Assembly (NCBI GenBank): GCA_903905455.1
Contig: CAIVGN010000224.1
Location: forward strand, 1 to 64,000
Source: an uncultured Archangium sp.
GTDB lineage: Bacteria; Myxococcota; Myxococcia; Myxococcales; Myxococcaceae
Direction: 5' to 3'
Length of the DNA stretch: 64,000 bases
Shown in pieces: positions 7,541 to 25,398 of the stretch (position 1 is the first letter of the stretch; every line of letters begins with the position of its first letter). The position numbers and the translations under genes are program-made. The notes beneath the pieces were generated by a model. That model was not told where the DNA came from and did no database searches. It saw only the letters and a program-made list of their open reading frames with translations.

Positions 7541-7687
7541 GGGATTCCCGGGCGAAAATGCGTGTAACTTGTTGAAAAGTTTAGGTTTGGTGATCGGTGG
7601 GGTCAAGACAACGACGCCACCCGGCGGAAGGTGGTTCCTCCCGTCGGGCGCGAACGCCGAAAAACCGAGCGATCATGACTACTTGGC

Positions 7688-10600
7688 TTACTTCTTCAAC
7701 TGCACCTCGACGTTGATGCCGACGGCCACGCGCAAGGCGTGGAGGTCTTCCCCGAGCGCGAAGACGAGCAGATCGCGGATCTTCGAGCGCGGCTGCACGC
7801 GGTAGTTCGGGCCCGTCTCGGCCATCACCATGCGCTTGACCGGCTCGATCTCGCCGGCCACGAAGGCGCCGGCGCGGGTGGCCGAGAGCTCGGCCCCCTC
7901 GAGGTAGTTGCGCAGATCGTTGGGCGTGGCGATCTTCACGTACTCCTTCGTGACCCGGGCCAGCGCATCGCGGGCCTGCGGCGTGAGGTGCTTCTCCAGC
8001 AGCTTGCGCTCGGTGTCGATGGCCCGGAGATCGGCCGTGAAGCGGAAGCGATCGACCGAGAGGCTGATGGCCGCCTGCAGCACCGCCTCGAGCCGCTCGC
8101 CGGAGAGCCGCTGGGTCAGCGCCAGCTCGGGCCGCAGCAACGACATGGTGCGGCCCAGCAGGTAGTAGACCTCGCGCTGACCCGTCTCGCTGAAGAACTT
8201 CCCGCCGAAGCGGAGCGCGACCGGGTCGGTGTGACAGATCTCGACGCCCACCATGGGGTCGGGCGCGGGCTCGGTGGTGCGCTTGGCCATGCGCTCGCGC
8301 GTCGTCACCAGGAACGGCGAGAACACCGCCACCTGGTCCATGCCCAGCAACCGCGAGACGTAGCGGTAGTGGTGAATCTGGTACTCCTGCGCCGCCGCGA
8401 CGTCGATGAAGTGCTTCTTGGGCACGATGCCGTAGCGGGTGAAGTCCTCCTTGTAGAGCACGCCGGCCTGCTCGAAGAGGATCGCCAGCAGGTCCGACAG
8501 CGGGCCGCGCACCTTGGGGTGGAAGAGGTGCTCGGTCCACAGCCGGTCGGTGAGCTGGCGCTGCGCGACCTCGCGCTTCTTCGCGTACGGAGACAGCTTG
8601 GTGAGGATCTCCTTCTCCCCGGGGCCCGGATCACCGATCAGCCCTGACATGACCTGGGCGGCGATCCACGCCGAGTCGTAGTCCTTGCGGCGGGCGGCCA
8701 ACTCGGCGAGCGCCGAGGCCACCTTGCCGGGGTTCGCGGTGGTGGGCAACGCGCGGCGCCAGGCCTCGACCGCCTCGTTCTCCATGCCCGGCTGGTTCTG
8801 CGCGAGCCCCGCGTACAGTTCCTGGATCTCGACGTTCTCGGGCATGCCCGAGGCGACGACCTTGTAGACCTGCACGGCGGCCTCGGGCGCCTTGAGGGCG
8901 TTGAGGTACAGGTCGCCGAGGGCCTTCCAGAAGTTCATGCGGACCGGGTGCGTCTCCGGCGTCTTGGGGATGCGCCCGATCATCCGCTTGTAGTTCTCGT
9001 CGAGCTGCTGCCACTTCTTGGCCCGGCCGAGCATCTGCTCGAGCGCGCTGAAGGCCTCGACGAACCGCCAGTCGGCGTCGAGCGCGGAGTTCATGCACGC
9101 CGCGGCCTTGTCGAAGTCGGCCAGCTCGTCGCGGTTGATCTCGCCCAACGCGAACCACACCCGCTTGGCGCGCTGGAGATCCTGCTGCAGCGCGGGCACC
9201 GAGAGCATCTTCTCGAGCATCTCGGCGGCCTTCGCACCCTGCTTCGTCTCCCGGTACAGCACGTAGAGCGCGTCCATCACGTCGAGCGCGTCCTGGCGGA
9301 TGCGCAAGGCGGACAGGTACGCGTCGATGGAGATGTAGGGGTCGGAGAGCTTGTCGCGGGCCACCGCGCCCAGCTCGACGGCGGCTTCGTACTTGGCCTC
9401 ACCGTCGAGGCCCTCCACGAGCTTCTGGCGGTAGTCGACCGAGCGGTCGAACTGCTGCGCCTGCTCCATGAGCACCACCATCGAGCGCAGCGACGGCTCG
9501 TGCCCGGGGTCGATGCCCAGCGCCTTCTCGAAGTGGTTCTGCGCCCGGTCGAACTGGCGCAGGTTCAGGTGCACGTCGCCGAGCGTCCAGTAGATCTCCG
9601 CGACCTCGAGGTCGGTGAGATCACCGCGGTGGTGCACGAGGATCGACTGGTACACGCGCTGCGCCTCTTCGAAGCGCTTGGCGTGCATCAGCAGGTTGCC
9701 GTAGCCCTCGAGCACCGGCAGGTACGTGGCGTCGAGCTGGTAGGCACGCTCGAAGGCGCCCAGCGCCTTGTCGCGCTTGCCGTTCTTTTCCGAGACGTAG
9801 CCCAGTCGGTAATGGCGCCGGCACATCTCGCGCGCGAGCTCCGGGTCGTCGGGCGTCTGGGCGTACTGCTGGCCCAGGCGCATGGTGACGATGTCGAGCA
9901 TCGCCTCGCAGCGATCGTACCGTTCGGTCGCGAGGTAGATGTCGGCCAGCGGCTGCGCGGCCTGCAGCAGGTCCGGCTGCAGCTTGAGCGCCTCTTCGTA
10001 GGCCCCGGTGGCCTGGTCGCGGTCTTCCTTCTCGTCGTAGTAGCGCCCGACCTCCACGAAGGCCTCGGCGCGGGCCTGCGGCTCTTCGGTCTGGCGGGCC
10101 TCCTCGACCAGCGCCTTCTCGTAGTTCTCGAAGTCGCGCTCGAGCTGGTAGATGCCCTTGAGCGCGCGGATCGCCGGGAGATACGCGGCGTCGATGCGCA
10201 GCGCCTCCAGGTAGCAACGCTTGGCGCTGCCGGCGTCGATCAACATGTCTTCGTTGATCTTGCCCATGCGGTACCAGAGCTCGACGGCCTCGGGCGTCTG
10301 GCCCAGCACCTGCGCCTCGCGCTCGAGCATCTCCAGGGCGAAGGGCCAGTTCCCCGAGCGCTCGAAGAGCATGCCCAGCGCGTGCATCGCGGGGCGGCAG
10401 CGCGGGTCGAGCTCGATGGCCTGCTGGTACGCGGTGACGGCGCGGTCCACGGCCCGGAGCTGCTGGTGGAAGATGTCGCCCATCTCCACGCACAGCTCGG
10501 CCTTCTCGGTCGGGTTGGTGAGAAGGTTGATGTGGCGATCGACGACGCCGATGAGCTCGTCCCACCGGCCCTGCGACTTGCGCAGGCGCTCCAGCGTCTT

Positions 10601-13600
10601 GATCGCCTGGAGGTTCTGAGGGTCGACCTGCAGCGCGGCCTCGATGCACGCGTCGGCGTGCCCGAGGTTCTGGTAGCGCTCCTCCCAGATGGTCGCGGAG
10701 CGGAAGAGGATCTTCACCCGCTCGCGGTAGTCGGAGGTGAGCTCGATCTGCCGCTCGTAGACGGCGAGCAACTCGGCCGGGCGATCGAGCTTCGAGTACA
10801 GCTGCTCGAGCGAGGTCAGCGCGTGGGCGTTGGCCGGGTCGAACTCGAGGGCCTGGCGGTAGCCTTCGACGGCCGCCTCGTCGTCCTGCAGATCGCGCTC
10901 GTAGACCTGCGCGACCTCGACCTGGATCGCCGCCCGATCTTCCGGCGTCGGCGCGATGTCGCGCATGCGCATCAGCGTGCTGGCGACCGCCGGGTGGTTG
11001 CCCTGGCGGCGCTGCAAGGTGACGAGCACCCCGAGGGTCTCGAGATCCGGCTCGAGCTCGAGCGCGCGCACCAGCGCGTTCTCCGACTCGGCGGGGTTCT
11101 CCATCTGCTCGTCGTAGACCCGGGCGATCTCCCGGAGGATCTCCTTGCGCCGCTCGATGCTGCCGGCGGCCTCCAGCTTCTGCTCGAGCGAGACGACGTA
11201 TTCCTTGTTCTGGCCACGGCGGGCGAACATCGCCGCCAGCCGCTCGAGGGCGGTGTCGTTGGTGGGGTCGAACTCCAGGATGCGACGCAGCGCCGCCTCG
11301 GCGGCCACCGGGTCATCGAGCTTGGTGTCGTGGACGCGGGCCAGCGTGAGGTACAGGCGCTCGGCGAGCGGCCCGCGGGGCACGGCGTCGGCGATCTCGT
11401 CGTACACCGCGGCCAGCTCGTCGTAGCTGCCGGTCTCCTCGGCGAGGCGCTCGACCTGCTCGCGCACGTCGTCCTGGTCGGGGCTGAGCTGGATGGCGCG
11501 GCAGTACTGCAGGAAGGCGACGTGCTTGGCGCCGAGCTTCTGCTCCTGCACGCGGGCCAGTTCGCGCAGCGCGACCACCTTCTCCTGGTCCGTGGCCAGG
11601 TTCGGGAGGAACCGGTCCATCGCCTGGGCGTAGCTGCGCCAGTCGTTGAGCCGCCCGAAGAGCTCGAGCGCCTGCTCGTAGGCCAGGCGGTTCGAGGGGT
11701 CGATCTCCAGCACGCGCTCGAGAGCGGCGCCGGCCATCTCCAGCTTGTTCGCCGGGCCCTTCCAGATCTCGGCGATTTGGTAGGCGGTCTTCGCGGCGTC
11801 TTCGCGTTCCTCGAGCTGCAGCTGCACCTGCACCTTCGCCTCGAGCGTGCGCACCGCGTCGGGCCAGGCCTTGAGCTTCACGAAGACCGCGTTGAGCCGG
11901 TCGAGTTCCTGCACCTGGTGCGGGTCGACCTCGAGGGCCCGGCGCGCGGCGTCGAGGGCCTCTTCGCGGCGCGCGGTCTCGGCGATGATCTCGGCGAGGC
12001 GGATGCGGATCAGCTTGATCCCGGACTGGTCTTCCTGGAGCGGGATCAGCCGCCGCAGCACGATCACCAGGTCTTCGCGCTTGTTGAGCTGGTCGAAGAT
12101 GTCGCGCAGCGCCTCCATTGCGCCGCGGTGCCGCTGGTCACGCTCGAGGGCCGCCTTGAAGAACGGCACGGCGTCTTCGCCGCGATCGAGCTGCTGCCAC
12201 AGCACCCTGCCCAGCCGCTCGTTGAGCCGCACCAGTTCGCGCGGGTCGACGGTGAACTGCAGCTTCCACTGCAACAGCTCCCGGAGTTCCTCGGCCTTCT
12301 GGCCGCGCTCCAGCAGCCGGGTCAGCGCCTCGAAGGCCTGCTCGTTGCGCGGGTTCTTCTCCAGCAGCTCACGGTAGAGCTTGATCGAGTGCTCGACGTC
12401 GTCGAGCCCCTCGGCCGAGGTGACGGCCATCTTTCCCAGCAGGCGCTCCTTCTCGGCGCCCTGCACCAGCTCGCGCTGCGCCTCCAGCACGCGGTACAGC
12501 TTGTCGCTGGCCTTCGCCTGCTCGTAGAGGATCTCCAACGAGCGCAGCGAGGGGAGGTGCCTGGGGTCTGCCTCGAGCACCTTCTCGAACGCACCGGCGG
12601 CGCGATCGGGGTTGTCGAGTTTCTCCATCGCGAGCTGCCCGAGCCGGAAGTACAGCGCCACGCGCTCCGCGGGCTCGGTGACCTGGAAGGCCATCACCTC
12701 GATGATGTCGGCCTGCTTGTCGGGGAAGTCGAGCTCACCGTAGAGGCGATCCAGCGCGGGCAGCGCCTTGGAAGAAGACTCGGCATGCGCGGTGCGGGCC
12801 TTCTCGTAGAAGACCACCGCCTGCTCCTTCTCGTCGAGCCGCTGCTCGGAGATCTGGGCGATGGCGAAGCACACCTCGGCCGTGTCCTGCGGCTCGGCGA
12901 TGCGCGGCAGCTCGGCCTGCAGCGCGTGCACCAGCTCGTCGTAGGACGAAGCGGCGGCGCCGGCGGCGATCAGGCTCTTGCGGATCTGGGCGTCGTTGGG
13001 GTCTTCCTTGAAGGCCCGGTAGTACGCGAGGTAGGCGAGCTCGGGCTCGGCCTGGCCCTCACGCAGGAGCGCCAGCTCGACGAGCAGCGTCTTGCGCTCG
13101 ACCTGGTCGGGCGACACGCCGACCCGTGACTCGATGAGCTGGGCCAGCTTCACCGCGTCGCTCGCCCGGCGGAAGGCGCCGGCGAGGATCTCGAAGGCCT
13201 GCTGGTTCTGCGGCTCGCGCTGCACGAGCCCCTCCATGCGCTGCAGCGAGCCCTCGTGGCGGGCGTTGGCGGCGAGCAGTTCGCGGTACAGGTCGAGCGC
13301 GCCCTGCTTGTCGAGGAGCTTCGTCTCACGCACCACCGCGAGCTTGAAGCTCAGCGGGGGCTGCTCTTCGGGGGGCAGCGCGCGAATGCGCCGCGCCAGG
13401 ACGTCGGCCAGCTCGGGCCAGCGCTGCTGCGTCTCGGCGAGGCGCTCCATCTTGAGCAACGCGTTGGCGTCGTCGGGCGAGAGTTCGAGCAGCCGGCGGA
13501 AGGTGGCGATCGCCCCGTTGGGATCCTTGAGCTGTTCTTCCTGCAGCGAGCCGATCTGGAAGAGCAGCGCCGAGCGGCGCCCGGTGTCCTCCTCGATGGT

Positions 13601-16600
13601 GAGCTGGCGCTTGAGCACGTCGAGCAGCTCGTTGACCCGCCCCTGGCGGGAGAAGAGCTGCCCCATCTGCTGCATGGCCTCGGCGTCGGTGGGCACGAGC
13701 TCCATCACCCGCTTCCACGACTCGATCGATTCCTGTTCTTCGTCGGCCTGGGCCTGGAGCCGCGCCAGCGCGCGGTACAGCTCGGCGCGCGCGGCGTCGT
13801 TCGAGGCGCGGGGGGCGACCTCGGTCAGTAGCGAGGCCATCTCGTCTTCGGCGTCGGCCTGCTTGTAGAAGCTGAGCACCAGCTCGAGATTCTTCGCCTC
13901 GTCGGGCAACTCGCGCAGCGCGCGGGCCGAGACCACGAAGGCCATCTCGGCGTTGTCGAGCTGCTGCGAATAGAGCTCCGCCATCTTGCGCAGCAACGCG
14001 GCCCGTTCGGCGGCCTGGGGCTCTGCGCCGACGCGCGCCTCGAGCATCTGCACCAGCTTGAGGTGCTCACCTTCGTTCGCGAACACCGGTTCCAGCGTGC
14101 TCGCGGCCTCACCCTTCAATGGATTGTCTGAACGCGCCATTTCTTCGAGAGCACCGACGGCCCCTGCGTGGGCAGGTTTCCGGCGCAATACCTCCTGAAA
14201 CGTCGAGAGCGCCCCTCGGGGGTCACTCAGACGGGTGAGCTTCAATCGGCCGAGGCGCACCAACAACTCCAGCGCCTCTTCTTCCTTCTGCCGTGCTTCC
14301 GCGAGCTGGATCTCCCGACCCAGCAACACGGCGAGCTCCGGCCACTGCTCGGTCTCCGCGAGAATGCGGCCCAGCAGCTTGATGGCATTGGGCTCCTCGG
14401 GCTTGCGCTCGAGGATCGCCTGGTAGCACTGCGCAGCCAGCGCCTTGTCGGACAGCGTGTCTTCCGCGAGGTTCGCCAGCTCGAAGAGCAGGTTCACCTG
14501 GTTGGCGACGTTGGTCTCCAACCCCAGCTGCCGCCGCATGACGATCGACAACTCGCGGAACTGCGAGGTGCGCCGGAAGATTCGCCCCAACTGCTCGAGG
14601 ACGAACATGTCCTTCGGGTCGCGGGCCAGGACCTCGTTCCACGCGCGGGCGGCGAGGTCGAAACGGCTGAGCCGGTCGCCGTAGATGACCGCGAGCCGGC
14701 GCCACAGCTCGCCAGCCAACGGCTCCTTGATGCCCCGCTCCAGCGCGTCTTCGTAGGCCGCGGTGAGCTCCTCGAAGGCCCCGAGATCGGCGGCCAGGCG
14801 CTCGAGCTCTTCGCGCACCTCGACGTCGTCGGGCTGCTCTCCGAACGCGCGCAGCCGCGCCGTGAGCGCGAGGTTCTTCTGGCCCACCGCCTCGCGGAGG
14901 TTGGCGATCTCGAGCAGCAGCGGAATGCGCCGCGACGGCTCGGCGGCCGAGAGGCGGACGTCGAGCACCTCGACGAGCTTCTTGAGATCGTTGACCTCCC
15001 GGTAGGCCCCCTCGAGTTGGCGGGCCGCCTCGAGCCGCGCCGAGTCGACGCTGAGCATGCGCTCGAGCGCCGCGATCACCTGCGGCTCGGTCTTCGAGAA
15101 CTGGAGCGCCGCGCCGAACGAGCGGAGCGCCTCGGCGTGCTGCAGCTCCTTCTCGAGGATCAGTCCTCTCTTGACGATGAGCGCGAGCCGCTCGGCGTCG
15201 TCGGCCGCGCCCTCGGCGAGCTGCGCCAGCACGTCGGCCTGCTCGAGCACGCGCTTCGACTTGCCGAAGAGCCGCTCGAGGGTGACCAGCACCTCGCGGG
15301 AGCGCTGAATGGCGAACGCCAGCTTGAGCGACTCGACGGCCTGTTCGTCGTCGCCGGCGCTCTCGAAGGCCTCGCCCGCCTTGAGCAGCAGCTCGAAGCG
15401 CTCGGCGGGGTCGGTCGCGAGCTGCGCCTTCTTGGCGTAGACGTCCGAGAGGCTCTTGGCGTTTTTCGACTTCTCGTAGAGCCGCGAGAGGCTGTCGAGG
15501 GCCTGCCTGTCTTGCGGCGCGTGCTCGAGCAGCTGCTTCCAGACGGTGGTGGCCTCGTCGGGCTCGCCGAGTTGCTCGCGCAACTCCCCCGCCCGTCGCA
15601 GCAGCGGCACCACGTGCTCGTCGCCGGCCGGTAGCTCTTCGACGGTCGACTCGTAGATCTCGGCCAGCTCGCCGAAGGACCCCGTGATGCGCGCCAGGCG
15701 CTCGAGCTCCTGCTGTACGCCGTCGCGATCCAGGCCGTCGGTGAAGGCCTTGAGCGCGTTCATGAACGCCGCCTCGGGCTGGGCGAGGTCTCTCTCGAGG
15801 ATCGCGCGGATCTCCCCGGCGATGCGCGAGCGCTCGGTCAGCGAGGTAGCGTGGACCTGGCGGGCCTCGCGAATGGCGATGCGTCGCTGGTGATCGCCGG
15901 TGCGCGCGAGCACCGCGTCGAGGATCTCCGCAGCGGCCGAACCATCTTCGTCGGCGCTGCGAGCCCAGGTCTCGAGGGCTTCGCGGGTCCCTTCGTGGGC
16001 CGCGTCTTCGCTGAGAATCTGGCGGTACACCTCGAGGGCCCCGCGGGGGTCCGAGAGGCGGTTCTGCCGGAGCGCGGCGAGCCGGAACGCGAGCTCCCGG
16101 CCCTGGGGGCTCTGCCCTTCCTGGTTGCGACGCAGCTCCAGGGCGAAGGCCAGCTCCTGCGGCTTGTCGAGCTCGGCGTAGAGGCGGTCGAGGGCCGTGG
16201 CGGCCTCGCGCGCGAGCACGTCGCGCGCGGCGATGAGGCGCCAGTTGCTGGCCGCCCGCTCGAGATCCTGGAGCTTCTGCTCCGAGAGCACCGCGGCCTC
16301 GCGATCGAGCGCCGAGCGAGCAGCAGGGTCAGCCTCGAGCTGCGCGAGGCGCTCGGTGATCGGCACCAACGCCTGGAACTCCTCGCGGGTCCGGTGCAGC
16401 CGCTGCAGTGAGCGCAGCGCCTCGAGGTGCTTGGCGTCGAGCACCAGCACGGCGCGCAGGTGCTTGACGGCCTGGTCCTGGTCGTCGAGCTTCTTCTCGT
16501 AGACGTCGGCCAACTCGCGGTGGAGCGCGATGGCAACCGGCTCGGCGCCGGCCTCGATGATCTCCTCGAGCACCTCGGCGTAGCTGTCGAGTGCGTCGGC

Positions 16601-19600
16601 GTCTTCGGCGGCGCCGCGAGCGGCCGCGCGAATGTCCCCATCCTCGGGCGCCAGCCGCATCGCCGTGGCCAGCGACGCGAAGGCCTGCTCGGGCTGGCGC
16701 AACTGCACGGTGTGCAGCTCGGAGGCCCGGCGCAGGGCGTTGATCTTCTCCAGCGAGTCCTTCGAGGACTCGGCGATGATCGCCAGCGCGCCCACCTGCT
16801 TGCGGTGATCGTTGGCGGCCTCGTAGGCAGGCAGCAACGCCCGCGCGGCGGCCTCGCGGTGGTCGGCGTCGGTCAGCAGGTTCTCGAGCGCGGCGGTGGC
16901 GTCGGCGTCGTTGGGCTTCTGCACCAACACCTCGCCGTAGCGCGAGATCGCCTCCGCCTTGTCGCCCAGCGCCGTCTCCAGCAGGCGCGCCCGCTGCATC
17001 GACAGCGCCGACGCCTTCTCCTTCTCGCCCCCCTGCTCGTAGAGCGCGATCAGCCGCGCCTGGGCCTGGGTGAGCTCGCGGAACTGGCCGCCCTGCTCGA
17101 GCAACTGCATCAGCCGCGGCAACTGGTCGAGCTCCGGGGCCCCGGCCTTGATGGCCTCCGACAGCGCGCTGGCCGCCTCGCGGGGCCGGTTGAGTTCGCT
17201 GTTCACCTGGGTCAACTGCAAGCCGAGCGCGACCTTGTCTTCGGGCGGCGCGATGGCGAGCCTGCGCCGGAGCACCTGGTCGGTCTCGGCCCAGCGCCGC
17301 GCGACGAGGTACAGCTCCGAGAGGCGCAACAACAGCTCAGGCTGATCCGGGCTCTTCTCCAGCCCCTTCTTGAGGGCGTGGGCGGCTTCGTCCACCGCGC
17401 CCACCGCTTCGGCCAGCTCCGAGGCCTCGAGCAACAACGACACGGCGAGCGCGGGGTCCTCCACCTTCGAGGCGAGGTCGGTGAAGGTGCGCGCGAGTTC
17501 CTGCTCTGCCTTGACGGCCCGGCCGAGGCGCACGGCCTCGGCGCGGAAGGTGGTGTCGGCGGGATCGAGGGTCAGCCCGCGCAGCCGGAGATCGAAGGCC
17601 GCGCGCTCGTCGATGAGCCGCTTCTCCGTGGTCTCGGCGAGCATGCCCAGCAGGTGCTTCTGCTCGTCGCGGTCCTGCACTGACGAGAGCTGCACGAGCA
17701 GCGACGCGACCTGGCGCTGGTAGTCGCCGGCCTTGGCGTACACCGGCGCGAGGGCGCGAGAGATGTCGCCCTGCCGTACCCCCTGGGCCGCGAGGCGTTC
17801 CAGGCCGCCGACGACCGAGGCCGCCTCGTTCCCCTCGTCGAGGAGGTTCAGGTACAGCTTCACCGCGTCTTCACGGCGGTTGAGGCGCTCGGAATAGAGC
17901 TGCGCCAACCGGGCGCGCCACTCCTGCCGCTCGGCGGGCGAGTCGGCCAGGGCGAGCAGTCGCTCGGCGACCACGGCCACCTCTTCCCACAAGCCCACGT
18001 TCGCAGCCGCGGCGCCCAACTTCTTGAGCGTCTGCACGCTGTCGGGGTCGAGCTCGAGGATCTTGCGGTACACCGCCGCCGCCGACGCCGGGTCCGCGGC
18101 CGAGGCCTCGAGCTTGCGGGCCTCCGCTTCGAGCTTCGAGCGCGGGTCTTGCGGTTCTTCGGCCAACGCCTTGCGCATCGCCGCGAGGGCCTGGGTCGCC
18201 TGCGCGTCGTCGGGCTGGCGCTTCTGCACCTCGAGCCAGGCCTCCTGGGCTTCGGCCGGACGGTCGAGCGACTGGAGCAACGTACCGAGCGTGCGCCACA
18301 GCGTGGCCTGGGCCTCCGGCGGCGCCACCTGCGCCGCGCGGCGCAGCGAGAGCGCAAGCTGGGGCTGTGCCTGGGCACGCTGGGCGGCCTCGGTCAGCGA
18401 CGAGAGCAACGAGCTCTTCGCCGGGTCGAGCGGAAGCGCGAGCGACAGCACGTGGAACGCCTTCGTCGCGTCCCCCCGGTCTTCGCAGACCATGGCCACC
18501 AGCTCGCACAGGGCCACGCGATCGGCGATCGGCCGCGGCGCCGAGGCGGCGAGTTCCACCAGGGGCCACAGGGCCTCGAGGTTGCCGTCGTCGGCGTAGA
18601 GCCCCGCGAGGCGGTAGGCGACCTGCGCGTTGTTGGGGTCGACCTTGAAGGCCGCCTCGACGTGCGCGCGCGAGGCATTGAGATCCTTGAGCAGCTTGAG
18701 CGTGAGATCCGCGAGGTTGAGCCGCAGCGCCACCTGGCCCTGCTTGTCCTTGAGCGTGGCGAGGTGCCGCTCGAGCACCGCCATGCCGTCCGCCGGCTTG
18801 CCCACGGCGATCAACGCCTCGCTGGCCAGCTCGGCCGCGTCGGGCCTCGAGGGGTCGAGCTTCGAGGCCTGCTCGAAGGCATCGGCCGCGCCCTGCTGAT
18901 CGTTCAACTTCGAGAGCAGCACCTGGCCGATGCGCAGGTGGAGATCGACCTTCGCCTGCTTGTCGCGCGTGTCGCCGGCGAGCTTGCTGAAGACCGTGAG
19001 CGCGACCCGCACGTCGCCGATCTTGATCGCCACCTGCTCGAGCAGCTCGAGGGCGTCGGGCATGGCCGGCCACAGGGCGAAGCAGCGGTCGATGGCTTCC
19101 TTGACCTTGTCGACGGCCCCCGGCTCGTAGAACGCGTACATGCGCGCGACCTGCAGCGAGAGCCGCGCGGCCACGCGACGCTCGCGCTCCTCGAGCGACT
19201 GCGCCTTGAGCTGCTTGACCTTGTCGCGCCAGACGTACTCGAGCTTGGTGAGGTCCTTCTGGATGGTCTGCGCGCGGGCGTTCTTGCCGTCGACGGCGAG
19301 CGCACGCACCAGGGCCTTGGTGGCCAGCCCGTGTTCCTGCGGGTAGTTGATGAGGCTCTCGGCGAAGGCGACGTACTCGTCGACCAGCTCGCGATCGCCC
19401 AGGGCGGCCCGCTCGCGCTCGAGCGAGTCGAAGCCCGAGGTGTGACGGCCCTCGTGGAGCAGCAGCTTGCGCGCCTTCTGGTACGCCTGCCGCTCCTGGG
19501 GCGAAGCGCGCGACGCGAGCTGGTAGCACAGCACCGCGCGATCCCGCCGCTGGAGCTTCGTCTCGTAGAGCTCGCCGGCGCGCAGGTAGATGGCGGCGGC

Positions 19601-19936
19601 GGCCGGGCCCGACTGCACCAGGGCCAGTCGCTCGAGCACCTCGGCGAGGGCCGCGAAGTCGCTGCGCCCCTCGTAGATGGCTCGCAACCCTTCGAGCGCC
19701 TCGCGCGCGTTCGGCGCGTAGACCAGCGCGCGGCGGAACAGCTCTTCCGCACGCACCGGGTTCTTCAGTTTTTCGCGGCACAGATCGGCTGCGCGGCAGA
19801 GCAAGTGCCCCGCCTCTTCAGCCTTCGGTACTTCGCGAGAGCGTGATTCGTACAGCTTGATCAGCTCGTCAACGCGACCAGTCTTTTCGAGGCTCGCCTC
19901 AACCTCGCCAAACGGCTTCTCGGGGGTGTTCGACAT
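7688..19936 (-). CDS. gltI: Giant TPR gliding motility protein GltI/AgmK
   Basis: A single uninterrupted frame of 4082 residues (about 450 kDa). Nearly all of it, about 20-3690, is tandem TPR-type helical repeats, often with the signature A.....LE.DP....A (for example AVEGYRQALEFDPANAHALT). There is no signal peptide and no TM segment, so it is cytoplasmic. The last 380 residues form a distinct non-repeat domain (LTDRLWTEHLFHPKVRGPLS; KHLTPQARDALARVTKEYVK). In M. xanthus the corresponding protein is a cytoplasmic component of the Glt complex thought to scaffold the motility apparatus. It lies between the RGG protein gene and gltJ with short gaps. Opposite-strand frames of more than 1000 codons here are composition artefacts. 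Assignment rests on size, repeats, tail domain and synteny. Confidence 0.85.
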   Translation of the reverse strand: MSNTPEKPFGEVEASLEKTGRVDELIKLYESRSREVPKAEEAGHLLCRAADLCREKLKNPVRAEELFRRALVYAPNAREALEGLRAIYEGRSDFAALAEVLERLALVQSGPAAAAIYLRAGELYETKLQRRDRAVLCYQLASRASPQERQAYQKARKLLLHEGRHTSGFDSLERERAALGDRELVDEYVAFAESLINYPQEHGLATKALVRALAVDGKNARAQTIQKDLTKLEYVWRDKVKQLKAQSLEERERRVAARLSLQVARMYAFYEPGAVDKVKEAIDRCFALWPAMPDALELLEQVAIKIGDVRVALTVFSKLAGDTRDKQAKVDLHLRIGQVLLSKLNDQQGAADAFEQASKLDPSRPDAAELASEALIAVGKPADGMAVLERHLATLKDKQGQVALRLNLADLTLKLLKDLNASRAHVEAAFKVDPNNAQVAYRLAGLYADDGNLEALWPLVELAASAPRPIADRVALCELVAMVCEDRGDATKAFHVLSLALPLDPAKSSLLSSLTEAAQRAQAQPQLALSLRRAAQVAPPEAQATLWRTLGTLLQSLDRPAEAQEAWLEVQKRQPDDAQATQALAAMRKALAEEPQDPRSKLEAEARKLEASAADPASAAAVYRKILELDPDSVQTLKKLGAAAANVGLWEEVAVVAERLLALADSPAERQEWRARLAQLYSERLNRREDAVKLYLNLLDEGNEAASVVGGLERLAAQGVRQGDISRALAPVYAKAGDYQRQVASLLVQLSSVQDRDEQKHLLGMLAETTEKRLIDERAAFDLRLRGLTLDPADTTFRAEAVRLGRAVKAEQELARTFTDLASKVEDPALAVSLLLEASELAEAVGAVDEAAHALKKGLEKSPDQPELLLRLSELYLVARRWAETDQVLRRRLAIAPPEDKVALGLQLTQVNSELNRPREAASALSEAIKAGAPELDQLPRLMQLLEQGGQFRELTQAQARLIALYEQGGEKEKASALSMQRARLLETALGDKAEAISRYGEVLVQKPNDADATAALENLLTDADHREAAARALLPAYEAANDHRKQVGALAIIAESSKDSLEKINALRRASELHTVQLRQPEQAFASLATAMRLAPEDGDIRAAARGAAEDADALDSYAEVLEEIIEAGAEPVAIALHRELADVYEKKLDDQDQAVKHLRAVLVLDAKHLEALRSLQRLHRTREEFQALVPITERLAQLEADPAARSALDREAAVLSEQKLQDLERAASNWRLIAARDVLAREAATALDRLYAELDKPQELAFALELRRNQEGQSPQGRELAFRLAALRQNRLSDPRGALEVYRQILSEDAAHEGTREALETWARSADEDGSAAAEILDAVLARTGDHQRRIAIREARQVHATSLTERSRIAGEIRAILERDLAQPEAAFMNALKAFTDGLDRDGVQQELERLARITGSFGELAEIYESTVEELPAGDEHVVPLLRRAGELREQLGEPDEATTVWKQLLEHAPQDRQALDSLSRLYEKSKNAKSLSDVYAKKAQLATDPAERFELLLKAGEAFESAGDDEQAVESLKLAFAIQRSREVLVTLERLFGKSKRVLEQADVLAQLAEGAADDAERLALIVKRGLILEKELQHAEALRSFGAALQFSKTEPQVIAALERMLSVDSARLEAARQLEGAYREVNDLKKLVEVLDVRLSAAEPSRRIPLLLEIANLREAVGQKNLALTARLRAFGEQPDDVEVREELERLAADLGAFEELTAAYEDALERGIKEPLAGELWRRLAVIYGDRLSRFDLAARAWNEVLARDPKDMFVLEQLGRIFRRTSQFRELSIVMRRQLGLETNVANQVNLLFELANLAEDTLSDKALAAQCYQAILERKPEEPNAIKLLGRILAETEQWPELAVLLGREIQLAEARQKEEEALELLVRLGRLKLTRLSDPRGALSTFQEVLRRKPAHAGAVGALEEMARSDNPLKGEAASTLEPVFANEGEHLKLVQMLEARVGAEPQAAERAALLRKMAELYSQQLDNAEMAFVVSARALRELPDEAKNLELVLSFYKQADAEDEMASLLTEVAPRASNDAARAELYRALARLQAQADEEQESIESWKRVMELVPTDAEAMQQMGQLFSRQGRVNELLDVLKRQLTIEEDTGRRSALLFQIGSLQEEQLKDPNGAIATFRRLLELSPDDANALLKMERLAETQQRWPELADVLARRIRALPPEEQPPLSFKLAVVRETKLLDKQGALDLYRELLAANARHEGSLQRMEGLVQREPQNQQAFEILAGAFRRASDAVKLAQLIESRVGVSPDQVERKTLLVELALLREGQAEPELAYLAYYRAFKEDPNDAQIRKSLIAAGAAASSYDELVHALQAELPRIAEPQDTAEVCFAIAQISEQRLDEKEQAVVFYEKARTAHAESSSKALPALDRLYGELDFPDKQADIIEVMAFQVTEPAERVALYFRLGQLAMEKLDNPDRAAGAFEKVLEADPRHLPSLRSLEILYEQAKASDKLYRVLEAQRELVQGAEKERLLGKMAVTSAEGLDDVEHSIKLYRELLEKNPRNEQAFEALTRLLERGQKAEELRELLQWKLQFTVDPRELVRLNERLGRVLWQQLDRGEDAVPFFKAALERDQRHRGAMEALRDIFDQLNKREDLVIVLRRLIPLQEDQSGIKLIRIRLAEIIAETARREEALDAARRALEVDPHQVQELDRLNAVFVKLKAWPDAVRTLEAKVQVQLQLEEREDAAKTAYQIAEIWKGPANKLEMAGAALERVLEIDPSNRLAYEQALELFGRLNDWRSYAQAMDRFLPNLATDQEKVVALRELARVQEQKLGAKHVAFLQYCRAIQLSPDQDDVREQVERLAEETGSYDELAAVYDEIADAVPRGPLAERLYLTLARVHDTKLDDPVAAEAALRRILEFDPTNDTALERLAAMFARRGQNKEYVVSLEQKLEAAGSIERRKEILREIARVYDEQMENPAESENALVRALELEPDLETLGVLVTLQRRQGNHPAVASTLMRMRDIAPTPEDRAAIQVEVAQVYERDLQDDEAAVEGYRQALEFDPANAHALTSLEQLYSKLDRPAELLAVYERQIELTSDYRERVKILFRSATIWEERYQNLGHADACIEAALQVDPQNLQAIKTLERLRKSQGRWDELIGVVDRHINLLTNPTEKAELCVEMGDIFHQQLRAVDRAVTAYQQAIELDPRCRPAMHALGMLFERSGNWPFALEMLEREAQVLGQTPEAVELWYRMGKINEDMLIDAGSAKRCYLEALRIDAAYLPAIRALKGIYQLERDFENYEKALVEEARQTEEPQARAEAFVEVGRYYDEKEDRDQATGAYEEALKLQPDLLQAAQPLADIYLATERYDRCEAMLDIVTMRLGQQYAQTPDDPELAREMCRRHYRLGYVSEKNGKRDKALGAFERAYQLDATYLPVLEGYGNLLMHAKRFEEAQRVYQSILVHHRGDLTDLEVAEIYWTLGDVHLNLRQFDRAQNHFEKALGIDPGHEPSLRSMVVLMEQAQQFDRSVDYRQKLVEGLDGEAKYEAAVELGAVARDKLSDPYISIDAYLSALRIRQDALDVMDALYVLYRETKQGAKAAEMLEKMLSVPALQQDLQRAKRVWFALGEINRDELADFDKAAACMNSALDADWRFVEAFSALEQMLGRAKKWQQLDENYKRMIGRIPKTPETHPVRMNFWKALGDLYLNALKAPEAAVQVYKVVASGMPENVEIQELYAGLAQNQPGMENEAVEAWRRALPTTANPGKVASALAELAARRKDYDSAWIAAQVMSGLIGDPGPGEKEILTKLSPYAKKREVAQRQLTDRLWTEHLFHPKVRGPLSDLLAILFEQAGVLYKEDFTRYGIVPKKHFIDVAAAQEYQIHHYRYVSRLLGMDQVAVFSPFLVTTRERMAKRTTEPAPDPMVGVEICHTDPVALRFGGKFFSETGQREVYYLLGRTMSLLRPELALTQRLSGERLEAVLQAAISLSVDRFRFTADLRAIDTERKLLEKHLTPQARDALARVTKEYVKIATPNDLRNYLEGAELSATRAGAFVAGEIEPVKRMVMAETGPNYRVQPRSKIRDLLVFALGEDLHALRVAVGINVEVQLKK

Positions 19937-19998: not shown

Positions 19999-21819
19999 TC
20001 AGGCCGACGCGGTCGGCGTCGGGCCAGCAGCGGCCGCCACGTCGGGCGGGGGCATGTGGCCATCGGCCTCGTCCTCGGCAACCTGCGCCGCGGTCTTCGG
20101 CTTCGGCTCGGGGCGCGGCATGGCCTTCACGCGGTCGGCGTTGGCGGCGTCACCGAGCTTGGTGAACAGCGCCTGCGCCTTGTCCAGCTGGCCTGCCGCC
20201 TCGAGGAGCTCGGCCGCCTTCTTCAGGTCGCCCATCGCCTCGAACACGAAGGCCGCCTTGTCCTTGCGATCCGCCGCCAGGTACACGTCCGCCGCTTCCT
20301 GCTGGCGACCGAGGAGCTCGAGCCACCGCGCGCGCTGCACGGGGTTGTTCGCCGCTTCGGCCTTGGCCAGCTCGTCCTTCGCGAAGGCGTCGGCCTCGGC
20401 CGTCATCTTCAGCTTCTGCATGAAGTGGAACGCCTTGGGGCCGGGGAGCGGCTTGAGGGTCTCGAGGGCCTCGGCCTTCTTGCCGGCGCCCGCCTGGAGC
20501 GTCGCCGCGCCGAGACGGTCACCGCGCTCGATGAGCTTCTGTACCTCGAGGTCACGCACGCGGTGCGCGCCGCCGAAGTCCTTCGCGCGCTCGTAGGCCT
20601 TGCGGGCCAGCGAGAGCTTGCCCGAACGCTCCCAGGCCAGGCCGGCCTGGTCGAACTGGTTCGCGCGCTCGTAGAGCTTGGCGATCGACTCGAAGTCCGA
20701 CTTGGCGACGTGGAACTCCATCAGCTTTTCCCACGCCGACGCGCGCTCGAGGGCCTCGACGATCTCGTCGCCCTTGAGCTTGGCCGAGAGGCGCACGAAA
20801 GCCGCCTCGTCCTTCGCCATCACCGCGGTGCGGAGCGCCGACTTGGTGTCGCCGCCGCCTTCGAAGAGCCGCGAGGCGTCCGCGAACGAGGCGTTCTTCT
20901 CGTGGATGCGGGCCGCGTCACGGGTGCGACCCATCTCCTCGAGCTTCTTCACGTCGGCCTGCCAGTCACCCGACGAGATGAAAGGCTCGACGCGCTCCGG
21001 GCGAACCGGGCGCGCAGCGCGCTCGGGGCGCGCAGGGCGATCACGGCGCTCGCCGGAACGCTCCGGGCGGTCGCCGCGGGGGCCACCACGCTCGGGGCGC
21101 TCGGTGCGCGCGGGCGCCGCCGACTGCGCGGGCACGGCGAGGTCAGCCTCGGTGGGCTGGCGGCCGGCGTTCTCGAAAGCCGGGCGCGCGCGCTCGGCGT
21201 CGTTCATCGACGACCAGATGAGGCCGATGGTGAACTGGGCGTCGGCGTAGGCGGCGACCTTGGGGTCGACCGCGGGGGCCGCGGGAACGACCGGGGCGGC
21301 AGCGACGACGGGGGCCGCGACGGCCTCGGTCGAGCCTTCCGCGGGGGCCGCATCGACGCTCGCCGCTTCCGGAGCGGGGGCGGCTTCGGGCGCAGCCTCG
21401 ACGGCAGCGACCTCCGACGGGGCCGGCTTCGGCAGGCGCTGCACGCGCATCAGCGAGGTGATCAAGCGACCGCGGGTGTTGAGATCGAGCTTCTCGATCG
21501 ACGCCAGGCGCAGCGGCTTGACGGCGCGAAGCACCGCGTTGAGCGGCTCCTTCATGGCCACGAAGTCGGTCTTGGTCAGCGCCTTCTCGAGGGCGCCCAG
21601 CTCGTTGACGACCCGGTAGCCCGAGGCACCGCCGCCGGGACCGTCACGCCGGTCACCGCGACCACCACCTCGTCCGCCTCCAGGCCCCTTGGGACCGCCG
21701 GGACCACCACGACCGCGGCCACCGCCGCCGCCGCCGCCGTCACGATCGTCAAAGGAAAAACCGCCGCGATCTCCCCGGCCGTTCTGCCCGGGGCCCTTCG
21801 CCTTGTTCTCGTCAGTCAT
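19999..21819 (-). CDS. TPR-like protein with N-terminal RGG-rich disordered tail
   Basis: Protein of 606 residues with no signal peptide. Residues about 10-67 are almost pure Arg/Gly with RGG and GRG boxes (DRGGFSFDDRDGGGGGGGRG). A short folded block follows (EKALTKTDFVAMKEPLNAVL), then an Ala/Pro/Glu linker at about 138-185. A second Arg-rich segment (ERPERGGPRGDRPERSGERR) lies near 240-275. The C-terminal half is a chain of TPR-like helical pairs (SIAKLYERANQFDQAGLAWE; LLGRQQEAADVYLAADRKD). It sits 62 bp upstream of gltI inside the gliding cluster, so a role in the machine is inferred. RGG tails suggest RNA binding or condensate formation, which is speculation here. Confidence 0.7.
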   Translation of the reverse strand: MTDENKAKGPGQNGRGDRGGFSFDDRDGGGGGGGRGRGGPGGPKGPGGGRGGGRGDRRDGPGGGASGYRVVNELGALEKALTKTDFVAMKEPLNAVLRAVKPLRLASIEKLDLNTRGRLITSLMRVQRLPKPAPSEVAAVEAAPEAAPAPEAASVDAAPAEGSTEAVAAPVVAAAPVVPAAPAVDPKVAAYADAQFTIGLIWSSMNDAERARPAFENAGRQPTEADLAVPAQSAAPARTERPERGGPRGDRPERSGERRDRPARPERAARPVRPERVEPFISSGDWQADVKKLEEMGRTRDAARIHEKNASFADASRLFEGGGDTKSALRTAVMAKDEAAFVRLSAKLKGDEIVEALERASAWEKLMEFHVAKSDFESIAKLYERANQFDQAGLAWERSGKLSLARKAYERAKDFGGAHRVRDLEVQKLIERGDRLGAATLQAGAGKKAEALETLKPLPGPKAFHFMQKLKMTAEADAFAKDELAKAEAANNPVQRARWLELLGRQQEAADVYLAADRKDKAAFVFEAMGDLKKAAELLEAAGQLDKAQALFTKLGDAANADRVKAMPRPEPKPKTAAQVAEDEADGHMPPPDVAAAAGPTPTASA

Positions 21820-21842
21820 GGCTTCTCTCGCTGAAAATGAAA

Positions 21843-21864
21843 GCGACGGCGTCAGTGCCGTCGC
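21843..21864 (-). terminator. Intrinsic terminator between the barrel gene and the RGG-TPR gene
   Basis: Perfect 8-bp stem GCGACGGC / GCCGTCGC with a 6-nt loop. On the minus strand it is followed by TTTCATTTTC. It lies 41 bp past the barrel gene's stop codon and 23 bp before the next start, suggesting that transcription is reduced inside the cluster. Confidence 0.6.
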
Positions 21865-21905: not shown

Positions 21906-22544
21906 TCACAGGCCGGGGAACGAGTACTTGACCGTCAACAGCGTCGAGAACCCGACCGACTGGGTGAGCGCCATGAAGTTGAAGTTGGCCTCGACGCCGA
22001 TCACCAGGTGACGCAGGCGCGTGTAGTACTCGACACCCGGGCCCGCAGTGACCAGGACGTCGATCTTCGGGAGCAGCGCCGCCGGGCTGTAAAAGGTCAC
22101 GCCTGCCCCACCCCGAAGGTAGAGCCAGGTGCGCTTGACCTCCTGCTGATCGGCCAAGCCCACGAGCCGCACCTTCACGGCCGCGCCGGGGGTCATGGCG
22201 CTGAAGTCGCCCGAGGCGGCGCCGGTGGTGCTCAGGCCCTTGTAGTCGCTGCCCATGCGGTTCGACGAGGCGAGGAAGAAGATCGACGGCGAGACGCGCT
22301 CGCCAATGTCGTAGCCCATGTCGATGCCGATGGCCTGGCCCGCCGAGAAGCACGAGGAGCCCGTACAGGCCGGAGGGGTGATCACCCCGTTGAAGCCCCC
22401 GCGGGCCTCGAAGAAGAAGCCGCGCTCGATCTCCTGATAGTTGGCGCCCTTCTTGTCTTCGACTTTGCTGGCCGCGGCCTGCGCGAACGCAAGCGACGAC
22501 GTGAGGGCGAACATCACACCAAGGGCAGAGGACAGGTGCTTCAT
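21906..22544 (-). CDS. gltH: Outer-membrane beta-barrel, GltH-like
   Basis: Protein of 212 residues with Sec signal peptide MKHLSSALGVMFALTSSLAFAQA. The mature part alternates polar and hydrophobic residues as in a small barrel (GFFFEARGGFNGVI; AAVKVRLVGL; RTWLYLRGGAGVTFYS; LVIGVEANFNFMAL), and the last strand is TLLTVKYSFPGL. There is a short Cys-containing loop, PPACTGSSCFSAG. In M. xanthus the gene next to gltG encodes GltH, one of three porin-like proteins anchoring the gliding complex in the outer membrane. Position directly downstream of gltG supports that identity, but the sequence alone only supports a small barrel. Confidence 0.6.
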   Translation of the reverse strand: MKHLSSALGVMFALTSSLAFAQAAASKVEDKKGANYQEIERGFFFEARGGFNGVITPPACTGSSCFSAGQAIGIDMGYDIGERVSPSIFFLASSNRMGSDYKGLSTTGAASGDFSAMTPGAAVKVRLVGLADQQEVKRTWLYLRGGAGVTFYSPAALLPKIDVLVTAGPGVEYYTRLRHLVIGVEANFNFMALTQSVGFSTLLTVKYSFPGL

Positions 22545-22655: not shown

Positions 22656-24581
22656 TCAACCGCCCTGCCCACCCGACTGCGCGAAGATGAAGGGGTAGGT
22701 GACGATCACGACGCCGCCGCCCTTGGGCTTGGGGAAGGTCCAGGTGCGCACGCGGCCGGCGACGCAGGCCTCGAGCTCGGCGTTGTTGACGGTGGTCTGG
22801 GCGACCGAGGACGTCGAGACCGAGCCGGTGGGCGAGATGATGAACCTCACCGCGACCTTGCCATTGAGCTTGGGGAACCGGTTCAGCTGGCTCTCGTAGC
22901 AGAAGCGGATCTGCCCGCGGTTGGCGTGGATGACCTTGCGGATGAGCTCCTTGTCGAGCGAACCCATGACCATCGGCTCCGAGGAGGTGATGCCGATGTC
23001 GATGTCCTTCTTGCCGCCGAGCACGCCGACGCCCGAGCCGTAACCGCCCGTACCGCCGCCGCGCCCCTTGGTGCCGATGCCGCCGATGCCGACGGTGTCA
23101 CCGACGCCGCCGCCACCCGAGCCCGAACCACGCAGGCCGAGGCCGCCGAAGCCGCCCGAGTCGCCAGCCGCCGCGCCGAACATGTTGCCCATGGCGCTCT
23201 TGAGCTCACCGCCGATGCCCTGGTGACCGAAGATGGTCGAGATGCCGCCACCGCTGCCGCCGAACACCTTGGCGACGAGCAGGCGGGCCTGGTCCTTGTT
23301 GTTCGGGTCCCCCTTGGGGGCCGCGTGCGCGGACCGCTTCGGCGCGTTGACCTTGCCCATCTGGCCCTCTTCGCCCTTGTGCTTCTGGGCGATCTCGCCG
23401 GAGTCCTTCTTCTTCTCGAACTTCTGAAGAATGGGGTTCTTCTCGGGCGGCTTGATGAGGAGCTTGGCGATGCGCGCCGACTGCGAGTTGAGCTCGTCGT
23501 CGAAGGCCTCTCCCTCGGCGTTCAGGTTAGCGGCGCTGATCACGAAGAGCGCGGCGATGAAGAACATGAGGAGGAAGATGTTGAGCACGGTGAAGTCGAC
23601 CGACTCGGCGAAAGGCACGAACACGGCCTTGGGCTGAGGCTGGAAGAAGACCTCCACCACGATGCCGCCGATGTCGATCCAGGCGAAGTCTTCGTGCTGC
23701 AGGGTCAGCGAGAGCGCGTCACCGTCGGCCGAGGCGATGCCCTTCTTCTTCGCCTCGTCGAGGGTCATCGTCTCTTCGCCGAACTTGCGCTGCAGCTCAC
23801 CGTTCATCTTCGAGGTGAAGCGCAGCGTGGCGCCGGCCTTGCCGAAGCGGACGAGCTCGAAGCTGGGGGCGCCGAACTTGGAGTCGCCCATCTCGAAGTC
23901 GACGCCCTTGACGCCACCGACGCGGAAGGTGCGCTCGACGTCGGGGTGGAGGAAGTACTCCCCCACCATCTGATCGCCCCAAAGGAACCGGAGCTCGACG
24001 CCCAGCGGCCCGGTGCCCTTGCGGCGGCGGGGACGCGAGCGCATCGACGCGCCGGGGAGTTCGCCTTCCACGTGGGCCGGGGCCGGCACGTACGCGACGG
24101 GCACCTGCACCGGTACCTGCTGCACGACCTGCTGCACCACCGCCTGCTGCACGACGGGCACCGCCACGGGGACGATGACCTGCGCCGCGGCGACCGGGGC
24201 TGCGACGACCGGCACCATGGGCGCGGTCATCTCGGCCGAGGCGATCGACGGGGCGATGCTGGGTGCGACCGAGGGCGCTGCCCCGGCCTGCTCCACCTTG
24301 ATGGTGGTGTTGCCGACCTTCACCTCGTCGCCGAACTGGAGCGAGCCCTTGTTGACGCGCTTGCCGTTGACGAAGGTACCTTCGACGCTGCCCATGTCGA
24401 TGATCGACAGGGTGCCGTCGGGGGCCACCTCGATGACGGAGTGGATACGGGACACCTTCTCGTCATCGAGACAGAGGTGCGCGGAGGAGAGGCGACCGAT
24501 CTTGATGATGTCTCGGTCGTAGTCCTTCGTGACGACGAGTTCGTCGCCCTTGAAGACCTTCAGTGTAAGAGGAACAGCCAC
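22656..24581 (-). CDS. gltG: Gliding motility protein GltG: FHA domain, TM, TonB-like tail
   Basis: Protein of 641 residues. An N-terminal FHA domain (about 20-97) shows the conserved G29-R30, S44-R45-I46-H47 and EGTFVNGK; FHA domains read phosphothreonine. A Val/Pro/Ala-rich linker follows (100-175), then a basic patch (RSRPRRRKGTG) and a beta-rich region. One TM segment covers about 330-351 (LNIFLLMFFIAALFVISA). Beyond it lie a charged segment, a long Gly-rich stretch (about 440-535) and a C-terminal AgmX/TonB-like domain (VIHANRGQIRFCYESQLNRF). The order matches M. xanthus GltG, an inner-membrane protein thought to reach through the periplasm toward the outer-membrane Glt proteins. A downstream hairpin ends its transcript. 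Confidence 0.85.
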   Translation of the reverse strand: MAVPLTLKVFKGDELVVTKDYDRDIIKIGRLSSAHLCLDDEKVSRIHSVIEVAPDGTLSIIDMGSVEGTFVNGKRVNKGSLQFGDEVKVGNTTIKVEQAGAAPSVAPSIAPSIASAEMTAPMVPVVAAPVAAAQVIVPVAVPVVQQAVVQQVVQQVPVQVPVAYVPAPAHVEGELPGASMRSRPRRRKGTGPLGVELRFLWGDQMVGEYFLHPDVERTFRVGGVKGVDFEMGDSKFGAPSFELVRFGKAGATLRFTSKMNGELQRKFGEETMTLDEAKKKGIASADGDALSLTLQHEDFAWIDIGGIVVEVFFQPQPKAVFVPFAESVDFTVLNIFLLMFFIAALFVISAANLNAEGEAFDDELNSQSARIAKLLIKPPEKNPILQKFEKKKDSGEIAQKHKGEEGQMGKVNAPKRSAHAAPKGDPNNKDQARLLVAKVFGGSGGGISTIFGHQGIGGELKSAMGNMFGAAAGDSGGFGGLGLRGSGSGGGGVGDTVGIGGIGTKGRGGGTGGYGSGVGVLGGKKDIDIGITSSEPMVMGSLDKELIRKVIHANRGQIRFCYESQLNRFPKLNGKVAVRFIISPTGSVSTSSVAQTTVNNAELEACVAGRVRTWTFPKPKGGGVVIVTYPFIFAQSGGQGG

Positions 24582-24655: not shown

Positions 24656-24904
24656 TCAGAGTTCGCCAACGGACTGCATGACCTTGTCTTTGAACTCTTC
24701 GCGAATCTTGATCAGGTTCGAGTGCTTCACCTTCTTGCGCGCCTCGACGTATTCGCCGTCAGGCTTCGTCAAGTCGCCTTCGATGGTGTCGTCTTCGAAC
24801 GAGTACTCAGTCTGCTTCTTGTAGGAGACGTTGCCGCCGCCCTTGTCCTGGGCGAACGCGGGGACAGCGAGCATCGCGATCAGCAACCACACCGTCTTCG
24901 TCAT
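24656..24904 (-). CDS. Small exported protein of the gliding cluster (CglF/GltF-like, copy A)
   Basis: An 82-residue protein with signal peptide MTKTVWLLIAMLAVPAFAQ. The mature part is about 63 residues, charged, and ends in SNLIKIREEFKDKVMQSVGEL. It is paralogous to the gene immediately upstream: both end in the pattern LIK(I/V)R..F.DK...SV.E(L/M) and share an acidic DG.L segment before it. Position next to gltG matches the place of gltF in the M. xanthus cluster, and the size resembles CglF as I recall it; I cannot decide between them. The location would be periplasmic or outer membrane. It lies 74 bp upstream of gltG. Confidence 0.65.
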   Translation of the reverse strand: MTKTVWLLIAMLAVPAFAQDKGGGNVSYKKQTEYSFEDDTIEGDLTKPDGEYVEARKKVKHSNLIKIREEFKDKVMQSVGEL

Positions 24905-24990: not shown

Positions 24991-25005
24991 TCTCACAGTG
25001 TGAGA
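24991..25005. promoter_or_regulatory. Perfect palindrome between the two small paralogs
   Basis: TCTCACAGTGTGAGA, a 7-bp perfect inverted repeat around one base, sits 6 bp past the stop of the upstream small gene and 86 bp before the next start. It has the size and symmetry of a dimeric-regulator operator. It could also be a short hairpin, though there is no T-tract. Confidence 0.4.
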
Positions 25006-25011
25006 AAGGTG

Positions 25012-25260
25012 TCACATTTCGTGCACACTCTCGCGCAGCTTGTCGTTGAAGTTCATCCGAACCTTGATGAGCGAGGGGAATTTGGGGTGCGGCGGGACGA
25101 TGTAGATGTCCCCCAGCCCGAGGGCGCGCGTGCCGTCGATGAGGTCGCCGTCACCGAAGTCCACCGTCTGGGTCGCCGGCCGGGGGGTGGTGTTGAGGCG
25201 CTCCGACTGTGCCGAAGCAGCGGTGGCGACGAGGGCTCCGACGAGGACCATGAAGCGCAT
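25012..25260 (-). CDS. Small exported protein of the gliding cluster (copy B)
   Basis: An 82-residue protein and the first gene of the gliding cluster. The start is the ATG that begins signal peptide MRFMVLVGALVATAASAQ; the reading frame stays open far upstream, but that part is antisense to the nuclease gene. The mature protein contains DFGDGDLIDG and IVPPHPKFPSLIKVRMNF and ends LRESVHEM. The C-terminal block aligns with copy A (LIKVRMNFNDKLRESV against LIKIREEFKDKVMQSV), so the pair looks like a local duplication with diverged middles. The function is inferred only from context: an exported accessory of the Glt complex. Confidence 0.65.
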   Translation of the reverse strand: MRFMVLVGALVATAASAQSERLNTTPRPATQTVDFGDGDLIDGTRALGLGDIYIVPPHPKFPSLIKVRMNFNDKLRESVHEM

Positions 25261-25305
25261 GTGAGACTCCGGGGTGAAGGTGTGCCGGTCGGACGCTCCG
25301 ATTGT

Positions 25306-25335
25306 GTCACTCCGTTCCCTGTTCCGGGAAGTGAC
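25306..25335. promoter_or_regulatory. Inverted repeat in the divergent promoter region
   Basis: GTCAC and TTCCC on the left pair with GGGAA and GTGAC on the right, with a 4-nt bulge and a 6-nt centre. It lies between the first gene of the gliding cluster and the divergent nuclease gene, 46 bp from the former's start. This is where an operator for either unit would be expected. No clear -35/-10 or -24/-12 pair was identified. Confidence 0.35.
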
Positions 25336-25398
25336 CCGCCTCGGTCGCAGCGAGTGCGGTGGGTTGGGCCGGGCACGACCGATGCTCAATGCCACAGC

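Follow-up and report, generated by a model that had tools for sequence, protein, structure and literature searches.

In Myxococcus xanthus (M. xanthus), the gene agmV (MXAN_4864/65) lies between gltH (MXAN_4866) and gltI (MXAN_4863), and the name is in use in the literature on this species. The passages of Luciano 2011 (doi 10.1371/journal.pgen.1002268) that deal with the locus report that transposons struck agmV in A-motility screens, judge MXAN_4864/65 to be likely pseudogenes and leave them out. In the part of PMC4158809 that covers the proteins of M. xanthus vesicles, MXAN_4865, listed as AgmV, is among those detected by mass spectrometry. Here, the gene at the same place was analyzed in an uncultured Archangium sp., using the first 64,000 nucleotides (nt) of contig CAIVGN010000224.1 (assembly GCA_903905455.1), which are called the window below. 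As the original prediction had it, an open reading frame (ORF) for a protein of 606 amino acids (aa) was found at 19999..21819; it is on the minus strand. From its position between gltH and gltI, this ORF was identified as agmV of the gliding cluster. The likeness to M. xanthus AgmV is one of position alone, and whereas the latter is annotated as two tags in the sections of the source concerned, a single intact frame was observed across the family of the window.

Other described proteins share further features with the 606-aa protein. GltI (AgmK) and the other Glt TPR proteins likewise consist of helical repeats, have no signal peptide and are encoded in the same gene cluster. RGG/RG-tailed RNA-binding proteins, including ribosomal protein S18 of a relative, also combine a folded body with a disordered tail rich in Gly and Arg, but the RG boxes of the 606-aa protein are sparse in comparison, and no known RNA-binding domain was found in its folded part by Pfam, NCBIfam and a solenoid profile search. 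A myxobacterial assembly that works as a condensate is PomX/PomY/PomZ of M. xanthus, to which the relevant passages of PMC10307791 assign a role in cell division, not in gliding.

The gene was found to be conserved throughout the Myxococcaceae, the family of the window, which is denoted f1 (f2, f3, f4, f5, f6 and f10 are other families). A first draw of 21 genomes, the own genome and 20 relatives, was searched with the C-terminal solenoid as query, and 14 genomes had a match: 10 of the 13 from f1 and 4 of the 8 from other families in the order. The three f1 genomes without a match were 78, 79 and 86% complete. A second draw comprised 97 genomes of the phylum and was searched with a profile of a 64-aa domain of the protein. 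It gave 37 matches with one copy each, and these included all 35 f1 genomes, without stop codons inside the matched stretch. Beyond f1, there was one match among 13 genomes of the rest of the order (0/9 in f5), one in the single genome of another order of the class, and none in the 48 genomes outside the class. Both draws combined, the gene is present in 44 of 47 f1 genomes, always as a single copy; in the own genome it is also single and its frame is intact.

The gene is encoded in the glt G1 cluster, where it is flanked by gltH on one side and gltI on the other, in 39 of the 44 f1 genomes. Four of the other five loci end at a contig edge, and in the fifth, G011, the gene lies beside gltH and is not followed by gltI. 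In 28 of 29 orthologues that start with GTG, the TAG codon ending the gltH frame was found 12-13 nt 5' of the start, an arrangement that suggests translational coupling from gltH to agmV. Across the family, the intact frame spans roughly 550-660 aa, and 32 of the 34 f1 loci of the phylum draw could be read over more than 500 aa; the exceptions are L093, which is cut by a contig end, and L085, which has a frame break. Between close homologues the non-synonymous divergence (dN) of the solenoid was 0.04-0.11, versus a synonymous divergence (dS) of 0.33-0.62. Thus, agmV is a real, conserved gene in the Myxococcaceae and no pseudogene. The break in L085 (genome G090) lies at about residue 260, inside the second Arg-rich repeat, and the downstream part is intact in another frame; it may be an assembly error or real slippage. 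A break or misread of this kind could explain the two tags of M. xanthus.

The N-terminal tail (residues 1-67, 21619..21819, minus strand) is rich in Gly and Arg and predicted to be disordered, and it contains the motif GFSFDDR at residues 20-26. It has 31 Gly and 9 Arg residues; the remainder includes Asp, Pro and Lys as well as the conserved GFSFDD patch. There are only three RGG and six RG boxes over the 67 residues, although the segment as a whole is Gly/Arg-rich and disordered. The best 55-residue window holds 38 Gly and Arg residues (about 69%), which has a binomial P of 5e-20 given the local codon pool, a composition model that is indicative only. The original prediction had described about 55 N-terminal residues as nearly all Gly and Arg; the tail itself is thus real and its purity was overstated, while the second Arg-rich stretch that it had described does exist (14 Arg and 9 Pro in residues 231-280) and is followed by helical, TPR-like repeats. 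A bias towards GGT codons in the tail was sought and was not significant (Fisher P 0.27).

A tail of this composition is rare among the proteins of a relative. The proteome of one f1 genome was sampled as 40 pieces of 20 kb with a simple gene caller based on GC content at third codon positions. At least 50% Gly and Arg in the first 70 residues was found in one of 522 sampled proteins, at exactly 50%, compared to 63% for the orthologue of that genome. A 50-residue window with at least 30% Gly and at least 10% Arg was present in 8 of 532 sampled proteins, several of which seem to have been called in a wrong frame. Apart from the orthologue, the one convincing RGG tail in these 532 was that of ribosomal protein S18 (L128:8831-9220), in which some 60 RGG-rich residues extend the N-terminus. 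A match of P0002 to ribosomal protein L15 was taken as compositional.

The tail was Arg/Gly-rich also in the close relatives, the opposite of what would have refuted the original prediction: 41 of the 42 f1 members that were read (8 and 34 loci from the two draws) have at least 50% Gly and Arg. The exception, L091, has 25% Arg and 12% Gly. It comes from a 2.7-Mb f1 genome (G051) in which the glt order is kept, GltJ is weak and the tail is Arg-rich and Gly-poor. Among the 34 tails, the net charge was +3 to +8, with 30 tails at +4 to +6, and the length was 40-90 residues. Start codons were selected by eye for L007-L023; for L059-L093 a simple rule was applied, with preference for ATG, a stretch like a ribosome site and a tail near 60 residues. 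L008 and L023 had no tail due to contig ends; the tail of L090, which is cut at the contig start, was counted, as was that of L093, which is cut in the domain.

Selection was analyzed with 19 independent pairs, picked by the divergence of the solenoid alone, regardless of the tail. In the 12 closest pairs the proportion of non-synonymous differences (pN) in the tail was at most 0.015, that of synonymous differences (pS) was 0.00-0.38, and the change was thus almost only synonymous. Pooled over all 19 pairs, pN/pS was 0.281 for the tail, versus 0.370 for the solenoid, and the tail alignments contained 126 gap columns. Values of 0.047-0.048 for the tail, which stem from pairs with similar tails of equal length, are biased and were not used. 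Because close pairs change nearly only synonymously, the Gly and Arg content and the charge are kept and gaps are many, the tail residues are selected and the length is loose. The Gly/Arg tail is, as judged from these comparisons, kept by selection.

The tail is not confined to the gliding cluster. Single-copy homologues were found in f2, f3, f4, f6 and f10, none of them beside glt genes, and the f1 proteins formed one clade (support 0.89). A tRNA-Ala gene (L025:9173-9248) lies shortly upstream of the f2 homologue. All tails outside f1 are positive (+6 to +12), and in three of the five families they exceed 50% Gly and Arg, the others having 45% (f3) and 29% (f4). The Gly/Arg tail therefore seems to be older than the place of the gene in the glt cluster, and it is not specific for gliding. 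The original prediction is thus supported in part: the tail is conserved within f1, but it is no invention of the gliding system, since positive tails occur also in five families away from glt clusters.

What distinguishes the glt-linked form are its linkers. An acidic Ala/Pro/Glu linker (residues 132-186, 21262..21426, minus) is 58-118 aa long in f1, with a net charge of -5 to -17. In f4 the corresponding linker has 48 aa (net -3), and in f2, f3, f6 and f10 it has only 13-15 aa. A second, Arg-rich linker (residues 230-283, 20971..21132, minus) has 43-94 aa and 14-35% Arg in f1, with L089 (14 aa) as exception, and 11 aa outside f1. L085, with its frame break, and L093 were omitted from this alignment. 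On the simplest reading of this comparison, the glt-linked form would have arisen from an older protein of tail, domain and solenoid by the addition of disordered segments with opposite charges.

The folded parts lie between the disordered segments. A 64-aa helical domain (residues 68-131, 21427..21618, minus) was recognized by AlphaFold and by profile and is conserved across families; it has no Pfam, NCBIfam or PHROGs match, and the best hit of a PDB search with it had an E-value of only 0.02. A helical hairpin (residues 187-229, 21133..21261, minus) was predicted by AlphaFold. It is separated by the Arg-rich linker from a short-repeat alpha-solenoid (residues 284-573, 20101..20970, minus), and an acidic C-terminal tail follows (residues 574-606, 20002..20100, minus). 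The AlphaFold model is poor overall, with a mean predicted local distance difference test (pLDDT) score of 60 and a shallow alignment of five sequences; pLDDT was below 50 for residues 1-64, 132-183, 230-274 and 574-606 and a few short stretches, with helices between, and helices were predicted over residues 286-566. The net charges of the four disordered segments are +4 (Gly/Arg tail), -6 (Ala/Pro/Glu linker), +3 (Arg-rich linker) and -4 (C-terminal tail). There is no obvious membrane segment in the protein; the highest Kyte-Doolittle mean over 19 residues is 1.84, in the Ala-rich linker.

The C-terminal part is predicted, by a sequence-profile match to solved solenoids, to be an alpha-solenoid of the TPR/IFT-A kind. 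Its best self-offset is 26 residues, and a profile of 13 solenoid homologues had IFT122 (E 8.7e-11), IFT144, IFT172 and IFT140 chains as top matches (up to E 1.5e-8). No Pfam TPR model scored above its cut-off, the best being TPR_2 with 18.6 bits (cut-off 27). The structure matches of the solenoid were generic. Foldseek gave no match at E 0.001 or better, and VIA-align gave Z values up to 10.9 for Gemin5 and other proteins, with a root-mean-square deviation of 6.3-7.3 over 135-142 residues; for helical repeats, such matches may reflect a common arrangement only. The first 700 residues of GltI, in contrast to the IFT-A solenoids found for the 606-aa protein, matched designed TPR, SPINDLY and OGT chains, in a single-sequence search that is an unmatched control. 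BLASTP of the called orthologues against GltI gave no match at 1e-4.

The explanation that we tentatively prefer, and to which we give somewhat less than an even chance, is that AgmV is a soluble cytosolic adaptor of the Glt machine, with a solenoid that docks proteins and charged disordered arms that contact partners. The likeliest partners of the solenoid would be the cytosolic parts of GltI and GltJ, as the gene order suggests. The four arms of alternating charge could give many weak contacts. The ancestral Gly/Arg tail would bind an anionic partner, most likely RNA, in view of the kind of tail and of the S18 tail, or otherwise acidic protein segments or the membrane. The forms differ, as the comparison shows, in the acidic linker and in the second Arg-rich linker; both would have been gained when the gene joined the glt cluster, and with them a general solenoid protein that bore the tail might have become a multivalent adaptor for gliding. 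AgmV may be a cytosolic component that has been missing between the motor and GltI/GltJ.

Several points weigh against a role in gliding. Luciano 2011, in the statements on MXAN_4864/65, explicitly doubts that these are motility genes; a clean agmV deletion may have had no phenotype, and a transposon insertion in agmV could act by polarity on gltI. The vesicle mass spectrometry does not place AgmV, because GroEL is also in the list in that part of the source. Outside f1 the protein and GltJ also occurred without each other, and the association with gliding fails there. For this comparison only GltJ scores over or near the cut-off were counted, because weak GltJ matches were widespread, including 3 of 14 control genomes (none over the cut-off). 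The f5 genomes G055 and G098 have GltJ above the cut-off and no AgmV-like protein, G015 contains the protein but its GltJ matches are only weak and partial, and G017 has GltJ above the cut-off and an AgmV-like protein elsewhere in the genome. Even within f1, gltI does not adjoin the gene in G011.

The main alternative, which we consider unlikely albeit a serious contender, is that the protein is RNA-associated, related to the ribosome or mRNA, and merely located in the glt operon of f1, so that its tail binds RNA and gliding can do without it. The homologues of five other families at unrelated places are in line with this, as are the tail type in common with S18 and the published doubt about a motility role. 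However, the gltH-gltI position is held in 39 of 44 f1 genomes, probably with translational coupling, the long linkers occur only in the glt-linked form, and the gene is not universal; it is absent from all 48 genomes outside the class and all nine f5 genomes and is therefore not a core housekeeping gene.

It is considerably less probable that AgmV is a dedicated assembly factor of GltI, translated from a shared mRNA immediately ahead of GltI, with a tail that holds the glt mRNA or the ribosome and a solenoid that receives the nascent TPR chain. The gene adjoins gltI in 42 of 44 f1 genomes, including three with a contig end on the other side, and the combination of charged arms and a solenoid would fit this role, but family members occur away from gltI. 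A similarly low probability is given to an RNA-linked scaffold, in which the tail would bind RNA and the oppositely charged linkers would gather many copies of AgmV, along with GltI and GltJ, into a cytosolic condensate for the nucleation of bacterial focal adhesions. If this were true, a bacterial motility machine would have a ribonucleoprotein or condensate component that evolved from an older RG-tailed solenoid protein. No report of a condensate or RGG role in gliding was found in the set of open-licence PMC papers that was searched.

Still slightly more doubtful is that the tail serves as a passive spacer, or arose by slippage in GC-rich repeats, and has no binding role. Its variable length, the many gap columns and the perfect PGGGRGG repeats in L009 and L010 would be expected in this case, but the almost exclusively synonymous change in close pairs, the narrow charge range of 30 of the 34 tails and the Gly/Arg content above 50% in three of five distant families argue against it, and the slippage by-product was rejected on the selection test of the 19 pairs. 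That the gene is a pseudogene, the proposal made for MXAN_4864/65, or a spurious ORF has next to no probability, because the one statement in the cited passages, the frame break in G090 and the presence of an ORF on the opposite strand are contradicted, for f1 as a whole, by the low dN of the solenoid relative to dS, the presence in 35 of 35 genomes and the 32 long frames. That ORF (20056..21834, plus strand) was rejected as a real gene; some homologues have an open antisense frame and others an interrupted one, as is typical for a shadow ORF.

The more solid news is that a gene of the gliding cluster that had been dismissed as a pseudogene represents a conserved protein family that is under selection and carries a Gly/Arg tail. 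Although motility screens had struck this gene amid the gliding cluster, it was taken for a pseudogene, and yet it is under clear selection across f1. It offers a clean case of a demonstrably selected Gly/Arg-rich tail in bacteria with a built-in comparison, i.e., the non-glt forms versus the glt-linked form with its added charged linkers.

The genes around agmV correspond to the Agl/Glt cluster G1 described by Luciano 2011, in the same-strand order gltF, gltG, gltH, agmV, gltI and gltJ. The gliding-cluster setting of the original prediction was confirmed by NCBIfam models for GltJ, GltG, CglE and CglF, all of which scored above their cut-offs. All of the following genes are on the minus strand. 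gltF (24656..24904, NCBIfam name CglF) matched NF033764 with 127 bits (cut-off 90), gltG (22656..24581), which encodes FHA and TonB_C domains, matched NF033760 with 956 bits (cut-off 650), and gltH (21906..22544, NCBIfam name CglE) matched NF033755 with 150 bits (cut-off 70). gltI (7688..19936) encodes a 4082-aa TPR protein recognized by Pfam TPR models, and the gene order matches Table 1 of Luciano 2011. gltJ (5501..7606) matched NF033761 with 666 bits (cut-off 450). Comparisons with plasmid sequences and viral contigs and a PHROGs profile search gave no match.

Upstream of gltF, a 456-aa protein with a lipoprotein-like start and without NCBIfam or Pfam match is encoded at 26485-27855 (minus strand), roughly where gltD/gltE lie in M. 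xanthus. The stretch in between (25000-26484, plus strand) holds a 494-aa ORF without NCBIfam match. Between gltH and agmV, a hairpin with a perfect 8-bp stem is followed by a T-rich stretch (21843..21864, minus strand), which is possibly a terminator or attenuator. The stem recurs at the same place with changed bases in L001 and L004 and is absent in L002.
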